Shown here in pieces: positions 6,147-35,546 of a stretch of 64,000 nucleotides of DNA. This DNA is from Spongilla lacustris. Taxonomy: Eukaryota > Porifera > Demospongiae > Spongillida > Spongillidae. The position numbers were made by a program, and so were the translations under genes. The notes below the pieces were generated by a model that was not told the origin of the DNA, did not search any database, and saw only the letters and a list, made by a program, of their open reading frames with translations. The stretch's first letter is position 1. Each line of letters opens with the position of its first letter. Location of the stretch: positions 16,525,427 through 16,589,426 of the forward strand of contig OX442417.1 of assembly GCA_949361645.1 (NCBI GenBank), read 5' to 3'.

Positions 6147-9100
6147 TCACCTCACACCTGCCATAGAAGCTTTCATTCTTTTCACCAAGTTTTTATATTT
6201 AGGAATTGCATCCAATACTTCCAGAAAGATGTGGAAGTTGTCAATCTTCCCATGTATGGCCCTCTGCACAGCAGTGAGGAGTTTGTCCATCCTGACATGG
6301 ACAGTGTACGTCTGAAGGTCCACCTCGGCTTTCTCATTCTCTGTAATCACACCTTTGGATAACAGCTCTGCAGCTATGTCATCAGGGTGGACAGCCATCT
6401 TTAGCTTTGCATAATATTGTTGAAAGACTTGCCCTGGAAGAAAGACAAATCATATTGGTCTGAAGGGTCTGCATGTTACCCAGTGGTGGTATATGTATCC
6501 ACTCCTACTTAATACATAGGTAACTACTCTTCAGAAGATTGCAAACATGATTGTAGTTAATATTTTGTATATAAAACATCAATTTCCAATCTTCTGATAT
6601 ATACAAAACATTCACTACAAACATGTTTGCAATCTTCTGATAGTTACCATTTAAATCCATTAATACCAAGTGGAAAAAAAATAATGCACATTGTGTTAAG
6701 CAACACGCACACACCACTCACCTGTTATACTGGGACATTGTTCTGTAACACCACCCAGCCACATCAACTGGTCCTCACTCACTTCTCCCCTTTGGGCACC
6801 TCTACAGGTACACTTCCACTTGTACACTGGTCCACTGGGATGCCTTGAACACACCACTACAGCTACATGAGGAGGGTCTGAGGTACAACGGGCTCCTGCA
6901 CACATGAAGGCATCTTCTAACTGGACATTATGGTACTTGAGCACACTACAGGCACTCTTGACACCACTGTGGACAAGACCTCTTATCTCCCTACACACCT
7001 CACTTGAAGCCTCATCAACATGCACTTCTATATAGGAGAACATGTCAACAAGGGTCACAATTTCAGCACTAGCCCTTTGCTCAAATGAGATGCAGTTGCG
7101 ATACAGACACAATGGCTTGTCTCCTTCCATGCACACCTTCCAAGGAGATGGGTTGGTTGGGGATAAAAGATGGGCCACAAGACAGCAAAATAGACCACTA
7201 GGAATATAGCCATGGGGGAACTTAATCATCAAGGAGGCACCTCTTTCAAGGTAGTTGGACACTTGGGTGGAGTCCAGGTGGGGCAGCAGAGCAGGCATCA
7301 AGTACTCACCATCTCTGATCATAGCTATGGCACCACGACTCACCAGCAACTTCACTAGATCTTGTGGAGTGAACAGACCCTCTTTGTAGAGACCTGTAAA
7401 CTCGCTCAGTAGCTCCATTGACAACAGGCCACGGTCCCTGAACATGATCTGGTTACTTCTAACTGCCACACCCCCATCCCTCAGCTTGTGGTGGTACTGC
7501 ACTAGTTCAGTTACCTTGGTGAGGACTACCTGGGGGTCACAAAACACTGTCTGGGGAAGAACCTCTGGGTAATATAAGAACGCATTGTGTTTGACAAGAT
7601 GGTGCAAGGCAGCAGAGAATGCATCTCCTTCAATGTGAAACCTTTTAGCAGACGCCTGACATTCTACAAGACTCAAGACACCATCATGGGAAGACCTTCG
7701 GAGAACAACCTCCAGCCCAAACCATGCTAAAGGCATTTTTATTAACCGCTGGGGTGACTTGGATATGATTTGCTTCCTAAGTACCTGGGCAACATGTCTG
7801 TCCACATCTTCAGGGGATAGGACATTCACATCAAATATCAACCCTTCTCCAGAGTAAAGCACATTAAACTTGTCAGGATCCAGTAATGCCTTGAGTTGTT
7901 GGTTTTTCCCTTGGATGGTTTCTGCACAGCTATCTTTGGTATCTCGATGTGTTCCCACAACGATGATCAGAGGATGAGCATCCTGGGAGTGAATTGCCCC
8001 AAGACAGTGTTGAAGAATCTGTTTATGAGAGAGAGATGATCGATATGCTTTACCAACAGGCTTGCCATCTGCTCCATAGTACTCAATGGTGGGGTGATGT
8101 GATAGCTCTTCTGATAGCTTCAGTACAAATATTGTTACCATGGGATCTTGAATGAACAATGGAAGGATGTCATGGTATTGCAGCTGACCACCACTGTCAA
8201 TGAACTGGATCCACTTCACACCAAACAACTTCCTGTTGTCTACAAAGGGAGATTTAGGGTTAATACAAGCAAGTAACAAGGCCTGCTGTTCTTACCTGAT
8301 GACTGGTTGATGTGATGAAACAGCTCATCCTCTATATCTGCAGTCCTGCTCTGTTCAGGCTGGGTGGTGTCCTTGGTGATGTTCACACCAGCAGGGGTGG
8401 GATCAACAGCTCCATCACTGGCTACATTGGAAGGGTCTATGGCCATCTTTGGGAGAGTGCTCACCACATCAGCCAATGATGGTGCCATGGATACACCACC
8501 TTTGATGGTTCCTCCAATAACACTCATCAGTACCTGGTCATCTTCAACCTCAAACCAGTCATCCTCCTCTTGTCCACCCACACCAGCCAGTGTGAAGGAG
8601 ATGGCTCTAACAGGGTTGTCAGCCAGTCCTGTACTGACACGTTGCTTTGGATGGTCCTTCTTGAGAAGGAGGTGTTTGAGGTGAGTCTTGCCAACACCAG
8701 CAGCTCCAAGGATGAGACACTTGGTCACTGAAGTTTCCACATATCCCTTGGTCATGGCCTCCTCATAGAGCCTCCTAAATGAAGGTATCAAATCTGATAT
8801 GGCTAGCCATAGCCCCCATCCCCACAGTATACTGAATTAAGGATGCTCCACTCTACTTGGATGCTTGAATTATCTCATATGTACACAACAAGGTGGACAA
8901 TTTTGTGTATAGCTCATGGCAGTACTACAGCAAGATAGATATCCCTTGGTCCTATATTATTCCTACTAATAACCTTGTACACAAGCAAACAATACATGAG
9001 TTGTAACACATCACATGTCCACAGTATGACAGGATGTGTGGGTGTGTTGGGTTACTATTAGTAGGTACAGCTACCATTACCACCTCACTAGAATGCTTCC

Positions 9101-10817
9101 CCAAGACAACTCCCGCAAAGATACTTGGAACTACTGAGGTCTAGAATTAGCACACATCCATGCATCACTATGGTCAGGTACCTCTACATAATGGTGTGTT
9201 ACCCTCACCCTGGTGTGACCTCTCTGAGGGGAATGAGGTGGGAACTCTCACCCTAGTGATGCATTGGATGTGTACTAAGGACACCTCCCTACCTAAGGGA
9301 GATTTGGGGAGGTGATCCTAATGACATAACTCCACCTCTTAGGGAAGTGAGAAAGTGTTGCTACATATATGTGCACTTTTGTATTTCCAAACATACCATG
9401 TGTACTCTAGTGCACATGACCACCATCAACACCCCCACAGGTACACTCCAAACATTCACACACCTGTCATCTGTCTTCACTGTGTTCAAAGGACTAGGGA
9501 AGACCATAGCCAGACCTGAAAATAGTCTGGTTAGTAGTACTGACCATAACAGTTGCATGGCTTACCTTTCACAGTGACCCTCAAGACCCTCTGACTTATC
9601 CCATCAACCACCAACAGCCTTCCCCCTGACAGCAGTAGAATGTCTACATAGGAACACTCAAATGGCATGTCTCCAACATGCTGCCACTTCTGATCAACAG
9701 GGTGAAGGGCATAGATGGCAGAGGTCTCCTTTGATTCATTACTGTCCTCCTCTTGTCCTCCAATGGCAAGGAGCACACCATCAACCACACATACAGTTGA
9801 ACCTCTGTATGGTACATATGGTAGCTCTCTCCAGGTAGATTGCAGTGTGTCTTCTTGTGACTGTACAGCAATCTGTGTGTGTGTGTGTGTGCGTGTGAGG
9901 ATGCACATTAAAGATGAGTGATGTACAAGCAGTCCTGTGGATGTGTGCACCACTGGGTACACATAGTGTGCATGTGTGGACATCATTGGTGTGTGTGCCC
10001 ATGTGAGAAGCATACACCACACATCAACTACACAGCTCTAACGTTAGCGTGCACGGTGTGCTACTACAGCGAGCGTCCACACTATGTGTGTGGTGTGGAC
10101 GCGCGCACACGTGTGCGTGTGTGTAGGACCACGCTGAGCGTGCATGTGTTGCAGGAAGCGTCCACGCGCTAGGTGCGTGGTGTGTGTGTCCCACGGGTCA
10201 GCTACACACACGCTAAACAAAGGGACAGAGATGCTACACAATGCTCAGTGGCTCACCAGGTCATTGATGTTGGCACACCACACAGCTGTGCCCATGTCCC
10301 CACCTCCCATCACGAAGACCTGGTCTCCATGGACCACTGCTGAAATGCTCCTACTTGGCTCAGGTAGTGATGGTCCAAAGTGCCAGGTCTGTGTCTTCCC
10401 ATCAAAGACTTGGACATCAGCCAAGGCCTTGCGCCCAACAAGGCCTTGGCTGACCCCATCACCTAGCCCTCCCATCACCACCAGACCACCTCCACCAACA
10501 CTAACTACACAGGACAGCACACACCCTACCAACATGTCTGACATGAGGGACCACCTCCCTCCTCTAAACTCTTTCACCTCCTTACTACGCACACCATCCT
10601 TATTACCCCCCACCTGCACTAACCATCCACCACACACTCCTAGTGTGGCCCCTGCCTCATCACCAGTCCATCTCTTCCACTTACCCTTATCATATAACCT
10701 GTACACTCCTCTTCCTCGTCCCCACACAACCCTACCCTCCACCTCCACCAGACCACCACCACTCCACACTCGACCACCTCGCTCTGGTGTATTTCCACAA
10801 CTTTCAAAATGAAACAT
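6147..10817 (-). CDS. Gene A: Kelch-Roc-COR-CARD protein
   Basis: Six exons on the minus strand: 10817-10257, 9872-9566, 9515-9464, 8774-8296, 8239-6722, 6433-6147. All borders are GT..AG and phases agree, giving 3204 nt or 1067 aa. Residues 1-307 hold about five Kelch-like blades (GGGLVEVEG, VGGGGLVVMGG, VVDGVLLAIGG). A Ras-like Roc follows: P-loop GAAGVGKT at 330-337, G3-like DSGGQ at 481-485, G4-like THRD at 563-566. The COR region is about 640-800. Exon 6 (residues 973-1067) is a six-helix CARD-like domain (PDDIAAELLSKGVITENEKA, then MDKLLTAVQ and FHIFLEVLD). Inference: a cytosolic immune or cell-death sensor, with the propeller binding ligand, the GTPase switching, and the CARD recruiting partners. 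The 144-residue gap between P-loop and DSGGQ is far longer than in Ras. ATG 10817 follows an acceptor-like TTTAG, so a 5' UTR exon is possible. The same layout is found in gene B at 31360-35546. Confidence 0.8.
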
Positions 10818-11437
10818 TTTTATGTTCTAAAGAAAAGAAATTATTAATAGTTAATTCACAGACAGCACCACCTTCGTTTGGGGACCTAGCTAGCTCGTAC
10901 GCACAACAGGTCCACACCACACACACTTCACGCTTCTCTTTACTACATCGCACACTACCAACGGCTACCTGCTTCATGGCCACAGGTAAGAGGCCTCTTA
11001 TGGCCCAATGGGGACATCCCAAAGAGAGCATTTTGAGCACTACACTAGGCCATATTGGCTACCTCGCACCACGAGACTCTCAAGCTATGCCTAATGGCGA
11101 GGTTATCAATGGCCTTGGCTATGTGGTATAACGTCGGCGTTTGATTGCAGCTCGTGTGTGCTCCACACACACCTGGATTCGTTACTTACTACTTCACTAC
11201 GTGAAAAAGGCGTAGACCTGTTGGCTTCTCTAGATAAGCATGTACAAATATAACGTTGACACGCGCACACCACTACTGCCCTCCCACACACCTTGGGTAG
11301 CTGCGGGGACCTCCAACACCACAATACAACTAGGAAAAACACCTAAACTGCTCTTCTATCACTACCCGCAACAAAATAATCGTTTTCCTCGCTCCTTTTG
11401 CAGTACACAACCAAAAGGCTTGGTAATAGTACCAAAG
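10818..11437 (-). promoter_or_regulatory. 5' flank of gene A, duplicated upstream of gene B and copy C
   Basis: Nearly the same sequence lies at 35547-36207 upstream of gene B, and part of it lies at 30225-30452 next to the deleted copy C. Conservation extends to the point where the fold-back transposon begins. It probably holds 5' UTR and promoter, but no TATA box or initiator can be named with confidence. No protein was recognised. Confidence 0.45.
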
Positions 11438-11907
11438 GGTCCGTGTATAAAAGTGCCAAATCATTTTTTTCACTGTCAATATTATTAATTGTTCATTTTA
11501 CGGTATCAAATTCTTATTTTTCTAGAAATGAAATTTAAGATTACGCTTTTTGTTATCGCCGTTTTCAAAAATTGAAAAATGAAAATTGGAATGGAACCGG
11601 AATGGATAAAGTGGAACCGGAACTCGTGTCTATTTCCGTCTGAGGCTCAGTCTGCTCTGAAACCGGGACCGACCGTTGTTCGGACCAGGAAACCCTAGTT
11701 TCTAAACCGAGATGGGTACGAGAAACCGAAATGGGTACGAGAAATGGGCGTTCTAAGTGCCTTAGCTATGGTCCGTGGCCGTATAAGTTGTATAACTATT
11801 GGGACCTTCCTTTGGCTGCGCTATATACACACACACACGCTCACACACGCGCGCCCACACACACTGACACACACATACACACACGCGCGCGCGCTCACAC
11901 ACACACG

Positions 11908-11949
<42 letters not shown>

Positions 11950-14900
11950 CACACACAACACTCCCTTTAATTCCCTTAGCCTTCATTAGCCTGCACAAGT
12001 ATTTTAATTAATAATTAATTTATTCAGTTAAAATAAAAACATTAGCATGCTGTAGGTTAAATAAGTTTTCTGTAAATGTACATTTGGAACACCATACAAT
12101 TAAAAACCAGAGGGGGTTGGAAGCAAAGTTCAATAAACTGATGCAGTACAAATGAAAGGGAGCCACAACGCCAATCAAGGCAAGGCCTCATAGTGTTCAA
12201 TGAGCCAGTAATGCAGAAGGCTAACACCAATAATGACACTCCTGTGGTTGCAGACATGGTTTGTGTTGTGGACATTAAAATGCAACTTACTGATACATCA
12301 TATCACAAAAGACAACTGAAGCATGTGGCCTCGTCTCCAATAGTGAAGAGTTTCCATTTTAGACTTTTTTTTCTTTCATGTTTGCTGTGACAAAAGCAGT
12401 ACAGGAAATGCACTACAAGCAATACTACAGACAGGCAAAGTCTATAAACCTACAGTTCAATTTATTATTGTTAATAATAGTAATTATAAATGATGGCATG
12501 CACTCCATGGTCAGGATGGCTGTTGTGGTTCCATCCTGTGGATTATTATTAACACAAATAAGCATTACTTAGTGTGCATATCAACACCTCCCCCCCCCTC
12601 TCTTGAGAGTTTGAATCACGGTGTGGCTGTAGGGTGATGTCTCACCCATGTATCCACATAGTGATGTTCATATAAGGGGCACATCACTGCCTCTCAGGAG
12701 GTTTGGGGAGGGGAGGGGGGGGGAGGGCAGTAATCTTTGCTCTGAGCAGATAATCATGATTCTGTTCACCCAACCTGACTTGGGTTTAAATATCCATGCA
12801 TGCACTGATTCCATCTCATTCTGGACATGGAAATTACCTTAGTGAAAGTCATACCAGCTTTGTTGAGTGTGGAAACATGCGTATATGTAGCACAGCAACA
12901 TGCAGAAAACAGCTTAATTTGTAGCCTGTAATTACGTGTTTAGTTTGGGTGAGGTAGATAGGATGCCTCCCATGTAGTGAAGATTCAGCCAATTAATGTT
13001 GTTTTTCAATTATTGTTATTCATCATCTGAAGTCCTATGCTCTATATATGGTGTAACTGGTGACAGTGCATGGTTATGAACAGGTTGAATATGATGCAAA
13101 AATGCTAAGTTATATAAGCCCCGCCCAGCTGACATCTTGCTACCTAACTGGTTCTTGGGCTAAACAGCATTGTCTTGATGTTGGTGACCAGCATTCAGAA
13201 TCCTATATGGGTTTACATTAGCTCCAATCCAATTATAATTATTCTATTATTTTGTTTCCACTGATGGAAATTTCTTACTACAAGGCATATATAAAGCATA
13301 CATAAGCATTAAATAGGACAAACCAAACCACATGATGGCTACTTTCTTTTGCAATACTTCGAGCCACAAATCTTTGCATGCATGGTTCTCGCACCAAGTG
13401 GAGAAGCTGAGTTGAATGATTAACACTTTTATTTTGTGTCATTTTGTTGTTGTGTTTCTGTGTGTATATGCGTTATTATTTTTATTATTGGTATTGCTGA
13501 GCACAGTACAAAAAACTGTTTGACCACCTTATCAAATTAAAAGGACCTCAAAGCGTCTGATGACAGGCTCCTTGCATTTTTTTTTCTCCTGAAGAAGCTG
13601 CCACACATGCGCAGCAGGGTACCTCTACCTGATGACCAACTGCAGCCACAAGAGAGTAGGTACCTGGACTTGGCAATAAACTTGGAGCAGTATATAGGTA
13701 ATCCCCGTGTAGTATATTTTGTACTATTGTAATGGGTGAACCTTTCTTTTGTTGAGCAGTGCCAGCTTAACTTATGTGCAGTAGTAAAAGAATATAGTGT
13801 CATGTATGTCATGTGTCAGCTGGACTGAGCTCTGTTTATCCACAGTGTTGTTCTATCTCAGATCTCAGCTGTAGTGATGCATTAATTTACAACTGATTGT
13901 GTGACAGCATTATCTGTACAATGCATTGAGATATTGGTTCCATCACAGTTGCCTTTGATGCCAAGACTACCATGCTGAAGTGCCTTCGTGAGAGACTCCA
14001 TTACTTATCCAGTCATGATGCCTATCTCCTATTGCGTCACTCTTTGGCCATCCCTAAACTGCTGTACCTTCTCAGAACATCACCTTGCTTTCTCTCATCC
14101 AGTTTAAAGATATATGATGATGAACTCAGAGCAACGGTCTGTAGCTCATTTAATATCCAACTGGCTGAAAGTGACCCTTCTTGGATACAATCCACTTTGC
14201 CTGTGTGTCATGGTGGGCTTGGCATTCGGAGCGCTGTGCAGCTTGCACCTTCTGCCTTCTTGGCTTCAGCTGCTGCCTCCTCCGGACTTGCTCACCTAAT
14301 TCTACCAGCAAATATGCAACCACCTCAGCTCAGCTATGTGGATGAGGCTCTTGCTGCATGGTCCCAAGGGTGCCAAGAACAACCCCCCACTGATGCTGCT
14401 GCCCATCATCAGAAAACATGGGACTCACTCAGAGTATCTTCTATTGCAGATACACTATTTACAGACTCATCTGATCCAATGCGCCGCGGGCTCGTTTCCT
14501 AGCAGCATCCTGTAAGGAGTCTGGTGCATGGTTAAATGCCCTGCCGGTTACATCACTGGGACTACGTATGGATGATGCTACTATGAGAATATCTATGGGT
14601 CTCCATCTGGGACTATCTCTATGTCAAAGTCATACCTGCCAACACTGTGGGGCAGAGGTGTCTCAGTTTGCCACAATCAGATTGCGAGATTTCATTATGC
14701 TATAGTCTAATACAAAGTGCACATATTTTTACCCATAATGCATGTGGGCTATGTAACAGGTCATGGACAACTCAGGGTAAAGACAACACTGACATCCCGA
14801 TGAGAAATGCTCTCCTGCCTATCCTTCAATGGTGCAAGAATTAAGGGGTTTTTGAGCCTTCTCGTCAACGAGCAGGTCAAAAGAAATTCATATAACTTTT

Positions 14901-16488
14901 AAAAACAAGAAAACCACACATGCGCAATAGAATTTAATTACATTACGATATATTGTAATGTGTGTCTGAGTAAAAATTACACACCCCTCCCATCTCCATA
15001 CAGAGAGACAGGCTGTGCTTTTTCTGGCACATCATATGCTCAATAATACCTCTTCAAGAAATGGTGCATGTCATATACAGTGTACTGAAGGCAACTCCCT
15101 CCTTATCCGATCATGCATAGCACACAACCATAAATAGATTTAATGTGCCTATCAATCCACATGTACAATCACTAGCTTGCAGTTAAATGTCTCCAAATAT
15201 ATAACATTTTATAATAATAATAATAATAATAAATATTTCTCAATGCAATGTACAGATAATGCTGTCACACAATCAATTGTAAATTAATGCATCACTACAG
15301 CTGAGATCTGAGATAGAACAACACTGTGGATAATAAACAGAGCTGAGTCCTGCTGACACACGACATACATGACACTATATTCTTTTACTACTGCACATAA
15401 GTTAAGCTGGCACTGCTCAACAAAAGAAAGGTTCACTCATTACAATAGTACAAAATATAATTTATTCAAAGCTGACACACCTATGTGTGATGGATGGCCT
15501 TGGTTTTAGAGCTACATGTGCAGCCAATCAAATTGACATGCATGACCTGTGGTCCCCAGTATGCATTACGTATGAGTAGCTCATTGCCTACACTAAACAG
15601 ACCTATTGGTTTTAGTAGACCCTCCATAAATTGCTTAGTGCATAACAGATGGGAGCTAGTGGCAAGTCAGGTTGGGTGAAAACATTCATGATTGTCTGCA
15701 CAAAGCAAAGATTACTGCCCCCCCCTCCCCAAACCTCCTGAGAGGTGTGCCCCTTATATGAACATCACTATGTTTAAGGATACATGGGTGAGACATCACC
15801 CTACAGCCACACCGTGATTCAAACTCTCAAGAGAAGGGGGGGGGAGGTGTTGATATGCACACTAAGTAATGGTTATTTGTGTTAATAATAATCCACAGGA
15901 TGGAACCACAACAGCCATCCTGACCATGGAGTGCATGCCATCATTTATGATTACTATTATTAACAATAATAAATTGAACTGTAGGTTTATAGACTTTGCC
16001 TGTCTGTAGTATTGCTTGTAGTGCATTTTCTGTACTGCTTTTGTCATACTAATTACAACAAACATGAAAGGAATAAAAAAATTATAACTCAGAGTGTGCT
16101 TGTTCTTCTTCACGATTGGGGACGAGGCCACATGCTTCAGTTGTCTTTTGTGATATGATGTATCAGTAAGTTGCATTTTAATGTCCACAACACAAACCAC
16201 GTCTGCAACCACAGGAGTGTCATTATTGGTGTTAGCCTTCTGCATTACTGGCTCATTGAACACTATGAGGCCTTGCCTTGATTGGCGTTGTGGCTCCCTT
16301 TCATTTGTACTGCAGTGAACTTTGCTTCCAACCCCCTCTGGTTTTTAATTGTATGGTGTTCCAAATGTACATTACAGAAAACTTATTTAACCTACAGCAT
16401 GCTAATGTTTTTATTTTAACTGAATAAATTAATTATTAATTAAAATACTTGTGCAGGCTAATGAAGGCTAAGGGAATTAAAGGGAGTG

Positions 16489-16557
<69 letters not shown>

Positions 16558-16990
16558 CGTGTGTGTGTGAGCGCGCACGCGTGTGTGTCAGTGTGTGTGT
16601 GTATATAACGCAGCCAAAGGAAGGTCCCAATAGTTATACAACTTATACGGCCACGGACCATAGCTAAGGCACTTAGAACGCCCATTTCTCGTACCCATTT
16701 CGGTTTCTCGTACCCATCTCGTTTTAGAAACTAGGGTTTCCTGGTCCGAACAACGGTCGGTCCCGGTTTCAGAGCAGACTGAGCCTCAGACGGAAATAGA
16801 CACGAGTTCCGGTTCCATTTTATCCATTCCGGTTCCATTCCAATTTTCATTTTTCAATTTTTGAAAACGGCGATAACAACAAGCGTAATCTTAAATTTCA
16901 TTTCTAGAAAAATAAGAATTTGATACCGTAATTGAACAATTAATAATATTGACAGTGAAAAAAATGATTTGGCACTTTTATACACGGACC
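11438..16990. mobile_element. 5.55-kb fold-back (long-TIR) transposon
   Basis: Both ends read GGTCCGTGTATAAAAGTGCC inward. Direct repeats of CCAAAG at 11432-11437 and 16991-16996 flank the element as a 6-bp target duplication. The paralogous segment at 36196-36230 carries one CCAAAG and no insert, which is an empty site. The left arm (11438 to about 12785, resuming 13712-13945) is the reverse complement of the right arm (15236-15465, then about 15660-16990). The left arm has about 0.9 kb extra at 12790-13710. Both arms contain a (CA)n tract (11825-11960; 16487-16600) and a C- or G-rich run. The central loop holds a retroelement fragment. No transposase was seen, so it is non-autonomous or of unknown class. 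Confidence 0.85.
13972..14700 (+). pseudogene. Retroelement protein fragment in the loop of the fold-back element
   Basis: The frame 13972-14502 reads MLKCLRERLHYLSSHDAYLL and, further on, LPVCHGGLGIRSAVQLAPSA. In another frame near 14590, MGLHLGLSLCQSHTC follows. These match a region that commonly follows the reverse transcriptase domain in retroelement proteins of invertebrates. The frame breaks after 14502, and no RT catalytic motif is present. A second fragment of the same kind lies at 26113-26705. Element class is uncertain. Confidence 0.55.
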
Positions 16991-17060
16991 CCAAAGGCTT
17001 AGCTAAAGGCAAAAACTTGCTACCACGTCATGAGACAGAAACACTCACCTTACAATTTCC
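16991..17060 (-). other. Conserved splice donor upstream of gene A, beyond the transposon
   Basis: The minus strand reads TTGTAAG|gtgagtgtttc at 17047-17058, and the same donor is kept upstream of gene B at about 36256. Homology between the two loci stops just beyond it. This suggests a 5' non-coding exon shared by both genes that in locus A is now separated from the Kelch exon by the 5.55-kb element. Inference from splice consensus only. Confidence 0.35.
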
Positions 17061-17699
17061 TCTGACAAAAACAAACACACGGGACGAAATGACCACATTT
17101 CAGTTATGTATACGTTCAAGTAAACCACAAGTAAATACCTTTATTAGATACATTTCCTGGAATTAGAAATTATCGGATTTACGATATTTCCTTTCACTGA
17201 ACAGCCGGAATTACGTACGTTTTCTGCGAAGGAAATATGATATATGCGTATGGAAATATAGTGTTTTCATAAACCGTAAGGAAGGGTTAAACCTACGCGC
17301 CCAAAGCCTGCATACTATTTAAAAAATTTATTGATCTTTTTGTATAATTGTGATTAAAAAATCAGCAATAGCACTTCATACATGTAACTACAACGTTTAA
17401 TATAGGAAGCAGTCCGCTAGAAGAGCAAAATACTTCAGTTCAATATTCTGAGGGAAACAAAATGACATTAAAATTAAGATGATACGAATTTTTTTACCTC
17501 AGGATGCAGTTTCTGCAATGGCGAGTCTTCCAGATCAGAACAAACCTAGCGGTCATTTTGGTAAAACGCTAGCGGTCATGTAAAACACATGCACGTACCT
17601 TTCTTCTTCAGATCTGACACAAACAGATTTGTCTTTAACCTGCCTTACACGTGATATAAGCACACGCGCACAGACACCCATGTACCAGTAACCACTTAC

Positions 17700-19621: not shown

Positions 19622-19657
<36 letters not shown>

Positions 19658-21900: not shown

Positions 21901-21910
21901 CACAACACAG

Positions 21911-22230: not shown

Positions 22231-22235
22231 CACAG

Positions 22236-24017: not shown

Positions 24018-24021
24018 TTTA

Positions 24022-24276: not shown

Positions 24277-24628
24277 TTTATTTTAATTAAATTTTTAAAT
24301 CTTGTGTGAATTTCATTCTTATTACCAATGTGATGTTTCCATGAAGATTAAAGCAGGCACTTGCACACTTAAAAGCAAAGTAACAGTGCAATGCAGCTTG
24401 CGTTGCAGCAATGCTTGCTGGTGCCATTGGAGTTGGAAAGTAAAAAGTTCGTGCTGGATCATGCTATCTTTTAGATATGTCATCTCTTTTGTTTGGTCGT
24501 GAACCTGAAAGTACATTCACAGACACCCCACCTCTGACATGACCTCCCTCCATTAACCCTAGTGTGGCCCCATACTCAACATCATCCTCCACTTACTCAC
24601 TTACTTACCCCTCACTTTATGTCCCTCA

Positions 24629-25594
24629 TGATGGTCCGTAGCATGGCGTCATTGACCACACCCTCTCCATAGGTGTGTGCTGTGTGCTGAACATGGTCAC
24701 TCTCCTCCATCATCCACACCTGGAACACCTCCTCTCCCTTCTGCTCCTTGGGCACGTTCCTCAGCCCCAGACCCATCTTTAAGGACAAAGAGTGCAGGAG
24801 GTACTTCTCCCTCCCATGCAGTAGGGCATTCTGCACGGCCTGGGAGGTGGGGGTCCCCGGTGGTCCCCAACACCACGGGGGCGCAGGGCTAGGGGGAGCT
24901 TGGACAAGGCCGCAAACCTCTTCACCTCCGCGGGCTTGACCGTGGTCATAAGTTCCTTGCTCACCTTCTGCATGAGGACGCGGTTGTCCCCCTCGGCTGT
25001 GAGCCCCGCGTGGGACCAGGTGATGCACTCCCCTAGGCGGTTAGCGGACAGGTAGCCCCCCCCCCCTCCCACACCTCTCCCTCCCGACGGTGGCCACCTG
25101 CTCGTTGTTCCAGGTGACCATGGTCTTGAAGATGCAGCAGAGAAGCAACACCTCCAGCTTCTCCTCGGCAGACATGTTGGGGAGCTGGGCTGCATACCTG
25201 TCCTTGGCGTGGTTCAGGCCCATGTTGAGGGCATAGATGTTGGCCAGGAGGGGGACCAGGGCCCTCTGCTGGAGCTGGTACCGCAGTATGGGGGTGTCCC
25301 ACTTGCCCGTCTTGCCCACGCACAGCCTGGTGCTGGAGTACCTTATGGCGTTGGTCATGGCTACCTTCTGGGAGCCCATGCACATGGAGGCGATGCACAG
25401 TCTGCCGCTCAGGAGCTGGTCGGCCAGGACCAGGAAGCACTCCCTACGCTTGGAGACCGTGCTGGTGAAGGTGCCGTCCTCGCCCACCTGGGACACCTGG
25501 TCCAGGAGGGCCTCCCTGGGCACCCGCACGTGATCCAACCACAGGGCACCATTGTCCACACCGTTGGCTGCCATCTTGTGTCCCATGTCCCAGA
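24629..25594 (-). pseudogene. Peroxisomal acyl-CoA oxidase, decayed copy 1
   Basis: The minus strand reads [20 protein letters not shown], then [26 protein letters not shown] and [14 protein letters not shown], matching the middle and C-terminal domains of acyl-CoA oxidases (FAD enzymes that start peroxisomal beta-oxidation). The N-terminal FAD/substrate part is missing, truncated at CCCAGATCTT (25594). The frame breaks in a G run at about 25058-25075 and again near 24870. The left end stops near 24630, before the last part of the protein. A longer copy lies at 48100-49366. Confidence 0.8.
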
Positions 25595-25656
25595 TCTTAG
25601 CTCAGTGGCCACTGCTGCTGACACCAAGTGGTTTAGCACTAGTTATTACCCCAGGC

Positions 25657-25658
<2 letters not shown>

Positions 25659-25738
<80 letters not shown>
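25659..25738. repeat. (GT)n microsatellite
   Basis: About 40 uninterrupted GT units directly beyond the truncated end of acyl-CoA oxidase copy 1. Confidence 0.95.
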
Positions 25739-25740
<2 letters not shown>

Positions 25741-26112
25741 AGTCAGGTGTATATAAATAATACACAAGTACACACTGTTGAGGGGAAGTCCCTTCTGTAA
25801 TCATGTGAACTCCAGGAGGTGGCTTGGCCCATAAACCATGAACTTGAATTAAATTAAAGAGTGAAAATAAAATGTACAGTAGTGACATGTGCATATACAT
25901 TTACTAAAAACACCAAAACGTAGGAGGAGGGCCTGGGCACTGGTTGGCACAAGAGTCATATTGGGAGGGGTACCAATAGTTCCACAAATATGGGAACATC
26001 AGTATGATAAGTGGTACCATGTACATAATGGTAGTAACACATCTGGTACCCAAAGAGTTATACCAAAATGTACATTAATGATGTCATATACAAAACACAT
26101 CAGCTAAAAAGT

Positions 26113-26705
26113 TCAAAAGTTCCAAAGTTCCAAAGGGCATGGGGAGGAGGAGCTATCCCCTCCTGGAGTGAGCAGCCAAAACGTAGGAGGGCCTGGGGAC
26201 TGGCTGGCACAACAGTCATATTGAGGTGGCCATACAAGCTGGAGACCACCTTGGACTTGGGGGTGTTGGTCCTTGTGGCAAGGTGTGATGCAAGCCATGA
26301 AAAGGCTTCAACAGCTTCTTTGCCCCAAGCTCCATATGACTCCCCCACAAGGGGAATGTATGTCCACCCAGCTCAGAACACTTCACATGGTTGGCAGAGT
26401 GCTTTCTTAGCTCAGTGGCCACTGCTGCTGCCCCTGCTGCTGACACCCACTTCAGAGGGAAGGGAGGGGTTAAGTGGAGATGTCACTGTAAGGTCAAAGG
26501 CAGCAGGCTTGCCACAGAGCCAATTAGAAGCTAGGATGTCAGCAGGAGGTGTGTGCTGGAGCTCATGTCCAAGTCCACTGCCAGCTTCTGCCTTGGCACT
26601 GATGCAGGCATGATGGCAGGTTTGGAGCACTACATCCCTGAGCTTGTGGTGCCTGGATACAGCATCCCCACCACATGTTAAGGCATGGTGTCCTAGGGGA
26701 TCCAA
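26113..26705 (-). pseudogene. Retroelement protein C-terminal fragment
   Basis: The minus strand reads DPLGHHALTCGGDAVSRHHK, then CGKPAAFDLTVTSPLNPS, and in other frames ELRKHSANHVKCSELGG and ESYGAWGKEAVEAFSWLASH. I recognise this order from retroelement-encoded proteins in many animals, where it lies downstream of a reverse transcriptase. The reading frame shifts at least twice, so it is dead. A short piece of the same sequence also sits at 25595-25625, at the acyl-CoA oxidase breakpoint. Confidence 0.6.
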
Positions 26706-26787
26706 AGGTGTCCTAGGGGATCCAAAGGTGTCCTAGAGGATTCAAAAGTGTCCTAGAAGATCCAAAGGTGTCCTAGGGGATACAAAT
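26688..26787. repeat. 20-bp tandem repeat, five copies
   Basis: The unit is GTGTCCTAGGGGATCCAAAG with one to three changes per copy. It starts inside the end of the retroelement fragment. Confidence 0.85.
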
Positions 26788-27165
26788 GGTGATGGCAGGT
26801 TTGGAGCACTACAAGTGTATATGTCACTGTGATGTAGGTGTGTGTGTGCTGTGAATGGCCTCCATTATTCATCGCTGGAATGTGCCTGTTGACCTTGACC
26901 ATATATGGATATCCCCTTCATCTGAATGTTGGCACAAGAGGACTGTTGTGCCCAAATAAATAAATGATTGAAGAGGTGTGTTGACATAACTGGTGTATAA
27001 TCTTATCAGTGTGTTTACACTACCCCAGGCCAAAAATTGCCAATTTCTTACCACTACTAAATGTCCCACTGCTGATGTTCTTATCATCCCAACACTGCCC
27101 CTCCCCCTCCCTCCCATCCCCCACACCTCTCCACCGCCTCCCCCTGCACCATATCACCCAGTACA

Positions 27166-28600
27166 TGGCACCAGCTGTCATGGAGCTAGAACAGTTGCTG
27201 AAAGAAGTAGACACTGTCAGCATAGAAGAAATCAATCCTCATCAGGAAAGACCTCACCTCAAAAGTAGGAAGGAAATCTGAGGTCATGAGGAAGGCACTG
27301 TATGGGATGGGGAAGAGGCAATCGCCCAATAGCCAAGCTAAGGAGGTCATTTGCCACACAGCTGGAGGAAAAGGACACCCCAGCAATCAGTGCTATCCAA
27401 GGTGGCTAGCAGAGGTTACTGGACTGAAGGCAGTGGACTATGTGTACTTGGAGCACACCACCAACAAAACTAAACTCATCATGGATGTCAGAATTGAAGT
27501 TGAATAACTAGAATAGTTAACTTCTAGCTACACACCAGAGCAGAGGTGATAGCAATCTCCCAATAAACACACAGGTTATTGGGGGAATCCCCAGCTGTCT
27601 AGACCTACAGAGACCTTAGGGCCCCCTCCCCCCTCCTCCCCCCAACCACTGGAGGTGTGGGGACAGCTCTGGGGAGAGCTTAGTAGCTGTAGATGGGCAG
27701 CCCCTCCCACCATCTGGGTCATCTGCGGCTTGAAGGCCAGCCATCTTGGTCCCCCAGCTATGGAGGGGTTAAGCCTACTGTGCACAGCCATACTTTCCAT
27801 CGGTGTTTTCAGGCCTGGGGACTAGGGGTCCTTACCCCATCTTTACTCTACGTGGAGTGTTTTAATTGTGGTAATCAAGGCCGTACATATCCCGTGTTAG
27901 CCAAGCACCTCAGCGGCCAGCAATCTCCACCTAAGACAAAACCATGTCCATCAAAAGAAGGATGAGAGGCAGAAGAAGAAGGTAGGACTGTTGTGGTGGT
28001 CCAGACAAGGGCTCCTTCACAGCCTATCAGGGTTCTAGTGCACACATACGGAAGACCCATCACAATGGAGGTCCACCAATTCCCCTGCCACCTCTGTGTG
28101 TGAGAGAAGAGCTGAACAAGATGAAGGGCAAGGGAATCATAACCAAAGCAGGAGAGCCAACCCCCCCAAGGTGTGTAGGAATGGTGGTCATGACAAAGAC
28201 ATCAGGAGAGATATGAGTGTGTGGTGAAGGAAGGTGTGTTGTAAGAAGTATGTCCTCTGCCAAGGGAGGACACCATTTTGGTACAGCTAGGAGGCACCAC
28301 ATGCTTCAGCTAGCTGGACACCAACAGTAGGTTATGGCAGATACTGCTCTCTGAAAAGTCCAGACTTCTCACTGCATTTCTGACACCATTTGGATGGTGT
28401 ACTGTTTCACCAAGCTGCCATATGGGATATCGAGCAGGCCACACATGGGAACCATTGCTTCCTACAAAGCTCCCAGCATACCCATGGCAAGGAGTGGCCT
28501 GGGGACCTCTACACACCCTTAGGGGCATTTTCTGAGGTCAAGACATTCACCACCAAATTGGGGGAGAATCATTCTATCTCTGTTTTCAAATCCTCAAACC
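27166..28600 (+). pseudogene. Decayed LTR-type retroelement (gag knuckles and RT start)
   Basis: Pieces in several frames: MELEQLLKEVDTVSIEEI at 27178, a zinc-knuckle relic CHTAGGKGHPSNQC at about 27351 (second Cys replaced by Ala), CFNCGNQG at about 27858, then CVREELNKMKGKGIITKAGE at about 28090, and SRLWQILLSEKSRLLTAFLT at about 28325. The last two resemble the start of a Gypsy-type reverse transcriptase (E-L-x-x-M..GII and F-W-Q-I-P-L..T-x-F-x-T-P-F-G). No LTRs were found. A shorter copy lies at 51018-51242. Confidence 0.55.
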
Positions 28601-28789
28601 AAGGTCACTGATAATGGTCCACACCCAGCTCTGCCCCACCCCCTTACCCTGATGTGGGCTTAGCCCTGCAGAGCTACCAATGGGCAGAAGGATACACCCT
28701 ATCCACTGCAGGGGGAGAATTTACTTGTTCCAAAGTGAAAGATTTCCACTACTAAAACTAGCTTTTTAAGAACCAACAAAAGAATATTT

Positions 28790-29233
28790 ACCAACACAGG
28801 GTGAGGGCATTGACCCCACTGCTAGAGGGGAGGGGGGTGTGGACCACACAGGGTGAGGGCATTGACCCCACTGCCAGAGGGGAGGGGTGTGTGGACCACA
28901 CAGGGTGAGGGCATTGACCCCACTGCCAGAGGGGAGGGGGATGTGGACCACACAGGGTGAGGGCATTGACTCCACTGCCAGAGGGGAGGGGTGTGTGGAC
29001 CACACAGGGTGAGGGCATTGACCCCACTGCCAGAGGGGAGGGGGGGTGGACCACACAGGGTGAGGGCATTGACCCCACTGCCAGAGGGGAGGGGGGTGTG
29101 GACCACACAGGGTGAGGGCATTGACCCCACAGCCAGAGGGGAGGGGGGGTGGACCACACAGGGTGAGGGCATTGACCCCACTGCCAGAGGGGAGGGGGTG
29201 TGGACCACACAGGGTGAGGGCATTGACCTCCAT
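28790..29233. repeat. About 52-bp minisatellite, nine copies
   Basis: The unit contains CACACAGGGTGAGGGCATTG followed by ACCCCACTGCCAGAGGGGAG and a G-rich spacer of variable length (50-53 bp). Long minus-strand frames of up to 155 aa are products of the repeat. Confidence 0.95.
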
Positions 29234-29375
29234 TAAATGCTCCCTCTAAACAAGATGCTTGTAACTACTGAGAGGGCTAGAATATCTTAAATGGATGCCC
29301 AGCCCCCCCCCCTCCTCCCCACCCAGGTGTGTGGGTTAGTGAGGTGTCCTTATAGCACACATTGATGCATCACTT

Positions 29376-30452
29376 AGAGCCTCCTGAATGAAGGTATCAA
29401 ATCAGATATGTAAAAGGTGGCTAGCCATAGCCCCCATCCCCACAGTATACTGAATTAAGGATGCTCCACTCTACTTGGATGCTTGAAAAATCTCATATGT
29501 ACACAACAAGGTGGACAATTTTGTGTATAGCTCATGGCAGTACTACAGCAAGATAGATATCCCTTGGTCCTATATTATTCCTACTAATAACCTTGTACAC
29601 ACTTAAACAATGTCACACATCACATGTCCACAGTATGACAGGATGTGTGGGTGTATTGGGTTACTAATAGTAGGTACAGCAACCATTACTGCCTCCATAG
29701 AATGCCCCCTCCCCCCGGCTGTCCTTAGCACACATTGATACATCACTATGGTCAGGTACCTTTACATAAGGGTGTGTTACCCTCACCCTGGAGGGGAATG
29801 AGGTGGGAACCCTCACCCTAGTGATGCATTGGATGTGTACTAAGGACACCTCTCTACCTAAGGGAGATTTGGGGAGGTGATCCTAATGACATAACTCCAC
29901 CTCTTAGGGAAGTGAGGAAGTGATCCTACATATATGTGCACTTTTGTAAAATTAGTATTTCCAAACACACCATGTGTACTCTAGTGCACATCACCACCAT
30001 CAACACCCCCACAGGCATACTCCAAAAATTCACACACCTGTCATCTGTCTTCACTGTGTTCAAAGGACTAGGGAAGACCCTAGCCAGACCTGAAAATAGT
30101 CTGGTTAGTGGTACTGACCATAACACTTGCATGGCTTACCTTCCACAGTGACCCTCAAGACCCTCTGACTGACCCCATCAACCACCAACAGCCTTCCTCC
30201 TGACAGCAGTAGAGTGTCTACATTGGTGAGGCTGGCTACCTCAGGCTAATGGGAAGTGATCTTTATACCAATGGCGAGGCTATCAATGGCCTTGGCTATG
30301 TGGTATAACGTCGGCGTTTGATTGCAGCTCGTGTGTGGTCCACACACACCTAGATACGTTACTTACTACTTTACTACGGGAAAAAGAAGGCGTAGACCTG
30401 TTGGCTTCTCTAGATAAGCATGTACAACTATAATATTGACATGCGCACACAT
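29376..30452 (-). pseudogene. Copy C: deleted third copy of the Kelch-Roc locus
   Basis: Sequence homologous to 8770-9650 of gene A runs from the start of Roc exon 4 (GCCTCCTGAATGAAGG) through intron 3, intact exon 3 (30089-30038) and the 3' part of Kelch exon 2 (to about 30223). It then jumps directly to the 5'-flank sequence (GGTGAGGCTGGCTACCTCAG, matching 35817 on). Kelch exon 1 and most of exon 2 are missing, and the Roc, COR and death-fold exons are absent downstream. It cannot encode the protein. Confidence 0.75.
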
Positions 30453-30459
30453 ATTGTGT

Positions 30460-31359
30460 CACTGAAGTACTTTGCTGGGTGGGCCTATACCCATACCACA
30501 TTAATCACCTCTGGCCCTATACCTATACAGATTTTAACCCCAAAAGGACATACTTTTGGGACAGTTATGAACAACCTTTGTGAGGATGTGATGTAACAGA
30601 GATGCCCCAAAGCATGTTTGTGTTCTCTTTGCCTTGAGGCAACTGAGTAATCAGCAACAGGACTTTGCAGCTGTATGGAGGAACTGTTGCTATGGCAATT
30701 CAAGGCCAGCAGGAAGTTTCAGAAGCATCTCTTTGTGTGGGACATGTTGGAGTGCCTGCAGCAGGGTCGAGGTACAAGGTGAAAACACAGCAGATCCCTT
30801 GTTGACGTCATTATGTACATCAACTCTTCACATTTGCTATTGGAAAGTCTGATAAAGTATATGTGTGTGTGTGTACATGTAGTCTGAAGATGCCATCATT
30901 CATGCACCACATTGCAGTGAATATTCCTAGCATCAGGCAATCGAGAAGAACTGGGTTTCCATTCTGTAATTAATATGGTTGGTGGTGATCTCTGCACCTT
31001 CTGCATGGTCACAATGTACCGGATGCACGGAGAGAAGACATCCACTGTCCATAAGCATTACCATAGTAGTTGCCTATTATGCGATATGGCCTGGTATGGA
31101 ACGGTGACTGTAACATAATGACGCACAAAAAACGTGTATCTTGAATTATGGCAGTGTTCACCCCCCTCCCCCCCCCCGTACACGTGGGCCAGAACACAAC
31201 GATTAATACATGTATGCAAAATCGTTTCCAAAAATCCGTTATAAGCACCAACAAAAAGTGAGCAACCCTTTCATCTAAAAGCTAAATCTTACCAAAAAAA
31301 GTCCATTAAAATATCCGGATTTAGGCAGGGAGGCCAAATGCTCAATGAACACACAATGA
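30460..31359. other. Intergenic stretch, no gene recognised
   Basis: Unique sequence of mixed composition with a short (GT)n near 30862-30874 and a C-rich run at 31160-31178. No convincing frame. Confidence 0.5.
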
Positions 31360-34300
31360 TCACTTAGAAGGGTTCAGCATACACACATGTTCAATATCAT
31401 CTGCTAAACTGGTCAGCTCAATGTCTCTAAGCACACCAACCAATGTCTGCCATGTTACTGGTCTCCTTCCAGTACCAGAGATCCACATCTTGTAGACAGC
31501 TGTAACAATCTTCACAGGGTCATGGTGGTACTTCTCCTCAAGACCTTCAACTATATCACAGTTGTCATCATCCAGGAGGTACATCCCCAGCTTGGTATAG
31601 CTAGTACTGGTCCTCTGTATGATGTTAAGGTTCTTCCTCACACCACCAACAAGGCTTGGTAAGCTAGTCAACAGTTTGATAGTAGGCACACCTGTGTGTG
31701 TGCATGGATGGAATGCTATTTACTGCAATCATTTACAGTTAACCATTTCCCCTTCTTTTCACACATCAATTGATGACAATGGCAAGTGATACTGTATGCT
31801 TGTATGACATGCTACAATACATTATGCAACATGCCCCAGGCCTACTCCTACTTCTCCCTAGGTGATCAGGTCCCTTCCTTAGCCCCTCCCCAGATGACAC
31901 TATAAAGAATGACAGGAGAGGACACTCACCAATTGAACCTTCTTGTTCTGGGATAACACTCCCACCCAAAGGACAATCTGGTAACCACATCAGCTGGTCC
32001 TTGCTCAGGTCTCCATTCTGGTCTTCTAAAATGGTACACTTCCACTTGTATGCTGACCTTGAACACACCACTACAGCTACATGAGGAGGGTCTGAGGTAC
32101 AACGGGCTCCTGCACACATGAAGGCATCTTCGAACTGGACATTATGGTACTTGAGCACACTACAGGCACTCTTGATACCACTGTGGACAAGACCTCTTAT
32201 CTCCCTACACACTTCACTTGAAGCCTCATCAACATGCACTTCTATATAGGAGAACATGTCAACAAGGGTCACAATTTCTGACGAATTACTATGTACTAAT
32301 TTGATGCAGTTGCGATACAGACACAATGGCTTGCTCCTAGCCATGCACACCTTCCAAGAAGATGAAAGTAGAAAGGCCACAAGACAGCAAAACAGACCAC
32401 TAGGAATATAGCCATGGGGGAACCTAATCATCAGGGAGGCACCTCTTTCAAGGTACTTGGACACTTGGGTGGAGTCCAGGTGGGGCAGCAGAGCAGGCAT
32501 CAAGTACTCACCATCTCTGATCATAGCTATGGCACCACGACTCACCAGCAACTTCACTAGATCTTGTGGAGTGAACAGGCCATCTTTGTAGTGCTTTGGA
32601 AACTTCCTCAGTAGCTCCACTGACAAGAGGCCATGGTCCCTGAACTTAACTAGGTCACCACCTCTAGCTGCCACACCCTCCTCTGGATTATCCCTCAACT
32701 TGTGATGGTACTGCACTAGTTCAGTCACCTTGGTGAGGACTACCTGGGGGTCACAGAACACTGTCTGGGGAAGAACCTCTGGGTAATATAAGAACACATT
32801 GTGTTTGACAAGATGGTGCAAGGCAGCAGAGAATGCAACTCCTTCAATGTAAAACCTTTTAGCAGACACCCAACATTCTACAAGACTCAAGACACCATCA
32901 TGGGAAGACCTTTGGAGAACAATTTCCAACCCAAGCCATGCTATCGGCCTCTTTACTAAATGTTGGGGGAACTCGGATACTATTTCCTTTCTAAGTACCT
33001 GGGCAACATGTCTGTCCACATTTTCAGGAGAAAGGCCATTCACAGCAAATATCAGCTCATTCAATCTTTCTCCGCAAAAGAGCACTTTAGATTTAAAGGG
33101 AGTGGTAAAGGGAGTGGAATCCAGTAATGCCTTGAGTTGTTGGTTTTTCTCTTGGATGGTTTCTTTTTTATCTTTAGTATCTCGATGTGTTCCCACGATG
33201 ATGATCAGAGGATGAGCATCTTGGGAGTGAATTGCCCCAAGACAGTTTTGAAGGATCTGTTTATGAGAGAGAGATGATCGATATGGTTTACCAACAGGCT
33301 TGCCATCTGCTCCATAGTACTCAATGGTGGGGTGATGTGATAGCTCTTCTGACAGCTTCAGTACAAGTATTGTTACCATGGGATCTTGAATGAACAATGG
33401 AAGGATGTCATGGTATTGCAGCTGACCACCACTGTCAATGAACTGGATCCACTTCACACCAAACAACTTCCTGTTGTCTAAAGCCGGAGGGAGATTTAGG
33501 GTTAATATTACAAGCAAATAACAAGGCCTGCTGCTCTTACCTGAGGATTGGTTGATGTGATGAACCAGCTCATCCTCTATATCCACAGACCTGCTCTGTT
33601 CAGGCTGGGTGGTGTCCTTGGTGATGTTCACACCAGCAGGGGTGGGACCAACAGCTCCATCACTGGCTACAGCTACATTGGAAGGGTCTATGGCCATCTT
33701 TGGGAGAGTGCTCACCACATCAGCCAATGATGGTGCCATGAATACACCACCTTTGATGGTTCCTCCAATAACATTCATCAGTGCCTGGTCATCTTCAACC
33801 ACAAACCAGTCATCCTCCTCTTGTCCACCCACACCAGCCAGTGTGAAGGAGATGGCTCTAACAGGGTTGTCAGCCAGTCCTGTACTGACACGTTGCTTTG
33901 GATGGTCCTTCTTGAGAAGGAGGTGTTTGAGGTGAGTCTTGCCAACACCAGCAGCTCCAAGGATGAGACACTTGGTCACTGAAGTTTCTACATATCCTTT
34001 TGTCATGGCCTCCTCGTAGAGCCTCCTGAATGAAGGTAACAAACATAAAAGGTGGCTAGCCACATAGCCCCCATCCCCAAGGAATGAATTAGACGCTCCT
34101 ACACATTGATTGTGCACAGGGTTCAATCAGAGATGCAGAGTATATAGAGGTATTGGAAACCATAGACACAGGGAAATCTCCACAGTGTGAATCATACCTC
34201 TAAGGTATTAAAGTATAAGATATTTGCAACTACAGAAAGGTCTGGAATATTTAAATGCCCAGGCACCCCCCCCCCCCCTCCCCCTCAGGTGACACAACTT

Positions 34301-34727
34301 CACCACATATACATGTAATGTAAAATTAGCCATTCACACACCTGACATCTGTCTTCACTGTGTTCAAAGGACTAGGGAAGACCATAGCCAGACCTGAAAA
34401 TAGTCTGGTTAGTAGTACTGACCATAACACTTGCATGGCTTACCTTCCACAGTGACCCTCTGACTTATCCCATCAACCACCAACAGCCTTCCTCCTGACA
34501 ATAGTAGAGTGTCTATTAAGTAACACTTAAATGGCATGTCTCCAACATGCTGCCACTTCTGATCAACAGGGTGGAGGGCATAGATGGCAGAGGTCATCTT
34601 TGATCCATCATGGCCTCCAATGGCAAGGAGCACACCATCAACCACACATACAGCTGAACGACTGTATGGTACATCTGGTAGCTTTCTCCAGGTAGATTGC
34701 AGTGTGTCTTCTTGTGACTGTACAGCA

Positions 34728-34802
<75 letters not shown>

Positions 34803-35546
34803 GTGTGTGTGTGAGTGTGTGTGTGTGAGGATGCACATTAAAGATGAGTGATGTACAAGCAGTCATGTGGATGTGTGCACCACTGGGTACATATAGTGTG
34901 CATGTGTGGACATCATTGGTGTGTGTGCCCATGACTGACACACGCTAAACAAAGGGACAGAGATGCTACACAATGCTCAGTGGCTCACCAGGTCATTGAT
35001 GTTGGCACACCACACAGCTGTGGCCATGCCATCACCTCCCATCAAGAAGACCAGGTCTTCATGGACCACTGCTGACATGCGGTCGCATGGCTTAGGTAGT
35101 GATGGTCCAAAGTGCCAGGTCTGTGTCTTCCCATCAAACACTTGAACTGAAGCCAAGACCATGACCCCATTGTACCCATCACCTTTCCCTCCCATCACCA
35201 CCAGACCACCTCCACCAACACTAATTATACTGGACCCATAGCACCCTACCAACATGTCTGACATGAGGGACCACCTCCCTCCTCTCCACACCATCACCTT
35301 CTTACTATCCACACCACCATCCTTCCAACCTCCCACTGCCACAAAACTTCCACCACACACCCCTAGTGTGGCCCCTGCCTCAACATCACCAGTCCATCTC
35401 TTCCACTTATCCTTATCCTCCAACATGTACACTCCTCCTGCTACTCCTCCCCAGACAACCCTACCCTCCACCTCCACCAGACCACCACCACCATAAGCTC
35501 GACCACCTTCCTCTGGTGTATTTTCGCAACTTTCAAAATGAAACAT
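31360..35546 (-). CDS. Gene B: Kelch-Roc-COR-Death protein
   Basis: Six exons: 35546-34989, 34729-34444, 34393-34342, 34025-33541, 33477-31930, 31691-31360. Borders are GT..AG and phases equal those of gene A; total 3261 nt or 1086 aa. Kelch blades occupy residues 1-298, P-loop GAAGVGKT 322-329, DSGGQ 475-479, THRD 557-560, then COR. Exon 6 (977-1086) is unrelated to the CARD of gene A and resembles a Death domain (YTKLGMYLLDDDNCDIVEGL, YKMWISGTGRRPVTWQTLVG, LADDIEHV). Inference: same sensor-switch design, wired to a different adaptor. Intron 4 is only 63 nt, a multiple of three, and lacks an in-frame stop, so its retention would add 21 mostly hydrophobic residues. Function is inferred from architecture alone. 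Confidence 0.8.
34733..34828. repeat. (GT)n microsatellite in intron 1 of gene B
   Basis: About 48 units, next to the exon 2 acceptor. On the minus strand it reads (CA)n and supplies the tract before TAG. Gene A has a shorter (GT)n at the same place (9875-9897). Confidence 0.95.

Follow-up and report, generated by a model that had tools for sequence, protein, structure and literature searches.

Kelch-Roc-COR genes with differing death-fold last exons in the freshwater sponge Spongilla lacustris

Genes A and B and their domains

Two genes, A and B, lie on the minus strand of a 64,000-nucleotide stretch of the Spongilla lacustris genome (assembly GCA_949361645.1, contig OX442417.1, positions 16,525,427 to 16,589,426 of the forward strand), hereafter the 64-kb window. 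Each has six exons, with GT-AG boundaries at all introns and splice phases that are identical between the two. The spliced products, of 1067 amino acids for A and 1086 for B, are free of stops, and both carry the P-loop GAAGVGKT and the motifs DSGGQ and THRD, confirming the common structure described in an earlier note on this DNA. That note had also described shared introns and 5' flanks, which were found as a 2,056-bp block at 90%, a 910-bp block including the 5' flank at 88%, and a 357-bp block further upstream at 95%. The sixth exons are unrelated, as had been claimed, and do not align with each other.

In gene A, Kelch blades 1-4 are encoded by exon 1 (10257..10817) and blades 5-6 by exon 2 (9566..9872). 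A short linker exon (exon 3, 9464..9515) is followed by exon 4 (8296..8774), which encodes the Roc P-loop and then a linker, and by exon 5 (6722..8239), which encodes the remainder of Roc (DSGGQ at 8184-8198, THRD at 7941-7952) and the COR domain. Exon 6 (6147..6433) encodes a tail assigned as a CARD from its predicted fold. Gene B has the same layout: Kelch blades 1-4 (exon 1, 34989..35546) and 5-6 (exon 2, 34444..34729), the linker (exon 3, 34342..34393), the Roc P-loop and linker (exon 4, 33541..34025), the remaining Roc with COR (exon 5, 31930..33477; DSGGQ at 33422-33436, THRD at 33179-33190) and a Death tail of the type termed D2 below (exon 6, 31360..31691).

The Kelch assignment is based on a Pfam Kelch_1 match in the whole A protein (1.5e-14) and on six GG/DG motifs, one per blade (DG in blade 6). 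The closest relatives of the B Kelch part in the PDB, by sequence, were designed Kelch propellers, KLHL2, KLHL3, KLHL20 and KEAP1, and from this match the repeated motifs are predicted to form a propeller. A PDB profile search matched Roc-COR to LRRK2 (E 3.9e-8), as did the predicted fold of a homologue (P0006), and COR lies directly behind Roc in both genes. The motif THxD is a Roc-type signature. Both the Kelch and the Roc-COR calls of the earlier note are thereby upheld.

The CARD-like domain claimed for A was borne out by a predicted fold matching the APAF-1 CARD; a PDB sequence-profile search with the CARD family gave no match at E 1. The tail of B was assigned as a Death domain at the level of its family, all six members of which matched Pfam Death (best E 4.1e-5; 12.7 bits for the exon of B itself), and the same tail type matched FADD in a PDB profile search (E 0.0034). 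The tail of P0006 was poorly modelled, with 10-residue means of about 53-71. The 12 Pfam families that A matched up to E 1 include neither NACHT nor LRR nor BTB, so that A does not qualify as an NLR.

The gene family and its tails in the Spongilla genome

The 248.56 Mb of the genome, in 51 contigs, were searched with exons of A and B, which lie on the contig labelled C3. Exon 5 of B recurs at at least 83 loci (83 scored out of 349 candidates) at 73-100% identity, and the A/B arrangement is not, on this sequence count, a chance event. Exon 5 lacked an internal stop in 82 of the 83 matches, partial matches included. Searches with the tails gave 58 matches for the A tail and at least 150 for the B tail (150 scored of 197).

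A tail exon lies on the same strand within 2,085 nt past exon 5 at 77 of the 83 loci. Seven kinds of tail were found: CARD, five Death subtypes (D1, D1b, D2, D2b and D3) and ZU5, the splits of D1 from D1b at 50% identity and of D2 from D2b at 60% being a convention. The next same-strand tail is D2b at 20 loci, D1 at 15, D1b at 12, CARD at 11, D2 and D3 at 9 each and ZU5 at 1, with none at 6. Tails were assigned from the stronger or nearer matches (82/150 for D2, 62/148 for D1, 21/58 for CARD, 18/58 for D3 and 3/22 for ZU5), and for the six loci without a tail the remaining tail matches were checked by eye and none lay within reach. The D3 tail (Pfam Death, 31.1 bits) and the ZU5 exon (45 bits) scored above the Pfam cut-offs. 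In hhalign comparisons D1 matched D3 (E 5.2e-5), D2 matched D3 weakly (E 0.028), and D2 gave no meaningful match to CARD.

At 69 of the 83 loci a same-strand Kelch exon 1 was found no more than 9 kb upstream (a count made with 122 of 150 Kelch matches), and Kelch and tail are both present at 65. The genome-wide search for Kelch-Roc pairs with their C-terminal domains that the earlier note had proposed thus supports its account of one switch with swapped outputs, which understated the case.

More than one tail match lies within 6 kb past exon 5 at 12 of the 83 loci, for example D1b then D1, or D2b, ZU5 and D2; some of these matches may belong to neighbouring fragments. At two loci (L032 and L013), and at G000:C1:30489657, where no exon 5 was found near, a ZU5 exon is followed by a Death tail further downstream. 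These are a possible ZU5-Death end on sequence order, which we take to be comparable to those of UNC5 or PIDD.

Exon 6 might have come from neighbouring genes, a possibility that the earlier note had named as one that would overturn its reading. Gene order speaks for exon 6 as part of A/B-type genes, because a tail follows exon 5 at 77 of 83 loci and because a number of gene models from Ephydatia muelleri, another freshwater sponge and the source of the named homologues in the protein search, end in Death domains. Twenty-two full-length E. muelleri models were picked from 120 listed homologues, one of them without Kelch; in at least 12, read by eye, Kelch is followed by Roc-COR and, at the end, by a Death tail. 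The E. muelleri tails are, again by eye, mainly of type D1, with some D2-like. Several other models have unrelated C-termini, perhaps annotation fusions. One model (P0053) has Pfam Ras and Roc matches and an N-terminal Ras-like stretch; another (P0100) appears by eye to carry several Death-like repeats ahead of Roc. In S. lacustris, a phase-1 acceptor was found ahead of the tail for D1 (4/4 loci), D1b (2/3), D2 (4/4), CARD (2/2), ZU5 (1/1) and D2b (4/6), the misses being loci where the search motif was not found; the D3 acceptor was ambiguous. An intronless Roc-COR-Death sequence on a 2,584-nt contig (P0074, 'lgn') may be a cDNA and was not used as proof.

The relation between tail and body was analysed on a tree of 43 exon-5 sequences (42 loci and A), two-tail loci being labelled by their first tail. 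With eight tail groups, two unknowns counting as one group, tail type required 26 changes against 27.7 when shuffled (as low in 43/200), whereas genome position, in groups that we defined, required 18 against 30.5 (as low in 0/200). Tail and position were likewise unlinked, 17 same-position pairs sharing a tail against 15.0 shuffled (p 0.29). The exon-4 tree, which is poorly resolved, gave 23 changes against 25.8 for tail (as low in 16/200) and 25 against 30.5 for position (as low in 1/200). At the sequence level these comparisons show that tail type is independent of Roc-COR phylogeny and of genome position, while the Roc-COR exon follows position.

Gene A, with its CARD, and locus L040, with a D1b tail, are 96.3% identical between intron 3 and a point 14 nt beyond exon 5; their Kelch parts are 86-90% alike and their tails are unrelated. 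Among 12 body-alike pairs compared, 7 have different tails and 5 the same. In three of the different-tail pairs similarity stops 47-62 nt beyond the exon-5 match; the exon 5 donor lies 34-49 nt beyond that match in L010, L021 and others. The other four diverge at 177-390 nt, in or beyond a D1 remnant, the value of 390 for L041 being overstated by a match that ends early. In the five same-tail pairs similarity runs for at least 431 nt. The similar block starts just upstream of exon 4 in several pairs.

The D1 remnant, which consists of the acceptor and first part of a D1 exon, is retained at 9 of the 15 D2/D2b loci examined. In all nine it is exactly 102 nt long, in phase 1-1, and is followed by a donor-like GTAAG. 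A further three loci (L015, L016 and L037) show it by tblastn only, and it was not found in B, L013 or L042. Its sequence suggests a D1 exon that was truncated on the arrival of another tail, and this in-frame piece may serve as a spliced adaptor.

That a single exon exchange rewires output, as the earlier note proposed, is one reading of the swapped outputs. Exchange as the sole mechanism was not accepted: the sequences would be explained as well if Roc-COR bodies had been converted past differing tails, or if local duplicates had had their tails replaced, because bodies cluster by genome position and tails do not.

Exon 4 is nearly uniform over the 43 loci, A and L013, on another chromosome, being 99% identical; dS is 0.095 for exon 4 and 0.318 for exon 5. 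Ongoing gene conversion is a possible source of this uniformity.

Kelch variation and other features of the window

Variability along the Kelch domain was scored in an alignment of 22 rows (20 E. muelleri sequences, A and B). The most variable residues lie at offsets -16, -15 and +1 from the second glycine of the GG motif (DG in blade 6), and variability peaks at these offsets in all six blades. They account for 13 of the 20 most variable residues among 18 of 285 positions (p 6e-14, with the offsets chosen on the same data); the same pattern shifted by up to 40 positions captured at most 7 of the 20. The same three offsets rank top in E. muelleri alone. In S. lacustris, 10 loci have a full Kelch, exon 4 and exon 5, of which three divergent ones (L044, L045 and L048) were left out of the dN/dS and pN/pS calculations. 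A test on the remaining seven confirmed offsets -16 and +1 (1.91 against 0.45 bits, p 3.7e-9), and all 10 loci gave p 3.5e-8. In Kelch structures the DA and BC loops, on one face, presumably hold these offsets, which in KEAP1 we take to be Nrf2-contacting residues, such as Tyr-334, Ser-363, Arg-380, Asn-414/Arg-415, Ser-508, Tyr-525, Ser-555, Tyr-572 and Ser-602. By this topology the three variable positions would form one ligand face.

Over the 21 pairs of the seven loci, dN/dS was 0.95 for Kelch (1.19 between A and B), 0.49 for exon 4 and 0.40 for exon 5, showing at the sequence level that Roc-COR is more conserved than Kelch. Within Kelch, pN/pS was 1.64 at the 18 variable sites and 0.84 elsewhere. 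Pairwise dS of Kelch and of exon 5 gave rho 0.39 (p 0.08), and reassortment of Kelch relative to the body is at most suggested.

Two further pieces of the family lie in the window. A fragment at 29375..30450 on the minus strand, downstream of B, is by sequence match a partial duplicate that covers the 5' flank, the last part of exon 2, exon 3 and intron 3. At 49568..49714, also on the minus strand and behind a low-complexity stretch, lies part of a Death exon of type D1b (residues 51-99, at 90%) with no Roc-COR exon nearby within the window, by its sequence a stray tail cassette.

The other features of the window are of different kinds. A long open reading frame at 42468-46493 (-) has gag-pol-like motifs by eye and resembles a gypsy-like retroelement. 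Two acyl-CoA oxidase fragments (Pfam ACOX_C_alpha1; 25041-25601 (-) and 48398-49381 (-)) are copies of a duplicated gene piece. An intact 696-amino acid frame at 52102-54192 (-) has GHG and DCC motifs by eye, like a caspase-type peptidase, and had no Pfam match up to E 0.01. Long minisatellite-like repeats (37427-38347, 41160-42273 and 54597-56475) are open in several frames and by eye are not genes. Rfam at gathering scores had no match within the window.

Interpretation and comparison with known systems

A and B belong to a set of at least 83 Roco loci, and we think it probable that these encode NLR-like receptors with a variable Kelch sensor, a conserved switch and a reassorted death-fold output. 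Receptor or immune function, GTP switching and signaling are here argued by analogy, and the parallel with NLRs concerns how the proteins would work, with no claim of membership. The Kelch face of three variable positions would bind variable ligands, whether microbial, symbiont or non-self. On binding, the Roc-COR GTPase would change state, as other Roco proteins do, and this change would expose or cluster the C-terminal CARD, Death or ZU5-Death tail, which could then seed homotypic complexes with adaptors or caspases. One and the same switch would be linked to different partners by way of its different tails. Such a protein would work like an NLR in reversed order, sensor first and output last, with a GTPase replacing the NACHT ATPase.

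Relatives of the A CARD and of the D3 tail, weaker in both cases, lie within 12 kb 5' of a NACHT match on the same strand (5 of 58 CARD matches and 13 of 58 D3 matches, counted over all 58 CARD, 58 D3 and 80 NACHT matches); none lay 3' of NACHT, and one pair was on opposite strands. Because of this position, the tails look by sequence to have kin among the apparent N-terminal outputs of sponge NLR-like genes, and some partners are probably shared with sponge NLRs.

Several observations weigh against this interpretation. Roc and COR were below threshold in Pfam when single sequences were used, and the A CARD and the B Death exon alone were below the cut-offs. No upstream Kelch exon was found at 14 of the 83 loci and no tail at 6. 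Some copies are, by their sequence, broken, because in L041, L049 and L050 exon 5 is spread across two frames, and one of the 83 has a stop; the 12 larger loci extracted were the lowest-ranked exon-5 matches, among which broken copies are over-represented. At the variable Kelch sites pS is raised too (0.314 against 0.138), so that segment import by recombination may contribute to the variation. Pairwise dS of Kelch and of exon 4 gave rho 0.88 (21 non-independent pairs), and the two do not look independent. Among 281 candidates no full-length database protein had the CARD tail of A, and that combination therefore rests on the S. lacustris genome. The contig N50 of this assembly is given as 0.3 Mb in the accessible part of its description (PMC12141999), which makes local misassembly among paralogues possible.

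A wider reading is possible but more tentative: a combinatorial non-NLR system with a hypervariable Kelch, a GTPase switch kept uniform by conversion, and a pool of CARD, Death and ZU5-Death exons shared with NLRs. At the 12 multi-tail loci one sensor could, to judge from exon order, choose its output by alternative terminal splicing. We give this reading less weight because Kelch and exon 4 distances correlate.

Variation concentrated at a putative ligand face would also suit receptors for allorecognition or symbiont tolerance, in which the hypervariable Kelch would match self or algal-symbiont ligands and not pathogens. Sponges are among the animals with allo-incompatibility (PMC8195603), and the S. 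lacustris sample contained Choricystis algae (PMC12141999), as stated in the available portions of these sources; we nevertheless consider this alternative unlikely. Slightly less credible is neutral birth-and-death of a repetitive family, in which tail mixing and Kelch variation would be by-products of recombination and few genes would be functional. Clustered duplicates, gene fragments, loci lacking Kelch or tail and frameshifted copies agree with it, as does the tandem and segmental duplication described for E. muelleri in the accessible text of PMC7385117. On the other hand, all but one of the exon-5 matches, partial ones included, are free of stops, the switch has a dN/dS of 0.40-0.49, the variable sites recur with the blade period in two species, and the reading phase is kept across most tail types.

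That Kelch is instead a KLHL-like substrate or cytoskeletal adaptor in developmental or stress signaling, with the tails as scaffold and no sensing of foreign ligands, appears quite improbable. The designed propellers, KLHL proteins and KEAP1 that are the best PDB relatives of the B Kelch favor it, but no BTB was listed for A, and the copy number, hypervariable positions and exchangeable tails would be unusual for housekeeping adaptors. An artefact, with exon 6 of A and B drawn from other genes or from misjoined paralogues, is hardly credible. Although the contig N50 of 0.3 Mb (PMC12141999, in the part available) and the many near-identical paralogues would invite one, the same order is seen at 77 of 83 loci, Kelch-Roc-COR-Death proteins are found in an independent species, E. 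muelleri, and most tail types have phase-1 splice sites.

If variable Kelch receptors with exchanged outputs are the correct reading, the family offers, in a lineage among the earliest in animals, a testable example of an innate receptor-like family that retains its switch and exchanges its output end. Animals may then use Roco GTPases, which are familiar chiefly from LRRK2 and Parkinson's disease, as NLR-like receptors. Near-identical switches with different death-fold outputs form a natural series useful for studying output wiring, and the family may show how receptor genes recombine without losing function.

The Kelch-Roc-COR-CARD/Death family was not found in searches of a collection of open-license papers, and the novelty that the earlier note had seen seems to hold for that combination and not for Rocos with CARD or Death domains. 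In Trichoplax adhaerens the Roco genes number at least 17, and CARD and Death are among the domains that they carry (PMC4104024), so that there too Roc-COR is joined to CARD/Death in an animal that branched early; an N-terminal Ras-like domain is present in at least three, and apparently in E. muelleri P0053 as well. The available portion of that account mentions neither a Kelch sensor nor a last exon that can be exchanged, and neither hypervariable positions nor a family of 80-plus copies. A Roco review, in its accessible text, names the Kelch motif among flanking domains (PMC6320773). Because of these two sources, what looks new is limited to the combination and the mosaic way in which it evolved. 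The same review describes DAPK1, in which Roc-COR is likewise followed by a C-terminal Death domain; DAPK1 differs in its kinase and ankyrin parts, and the text available describes no tail-swapping family (PMC6320773).

Among expanded families, the brown-algal ROCO proteins, proposed as immune receptors, also carry modular exons on a Roc-COR core (PMC11378527). There the sensor (LRR) exons shuffle and, in the part of the account available, two small groups have a peptidase or DUF900 added at the C-terminus, whereas in the sponge family the sensor is Kelch and it is the output module that is reassorted among paralogues relative to the Roc-COR core. The Amphimedon TRADD-N proteins, like the present family, have expanded specifically in sponges and combine Death-like domains with a variety of partner domains; they are centered on TRADD-N, and the accessible text names no Roc-COR switch (PMC8195603). 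A parallel in plan is with animal NLRs (CARD or Death, NACHT and LRR), of which the sponge Dysidea avara is stated, in the portion available, to have 126 (PMC12909245): both combine a sensor, a nucleotide switch and a CARD/Death output, and both are expanded in sponges. In the S. lacustris family a Roc-COR GTPase takes the place of NACHT, Kelch that of LRR, and the domain order is reversed.

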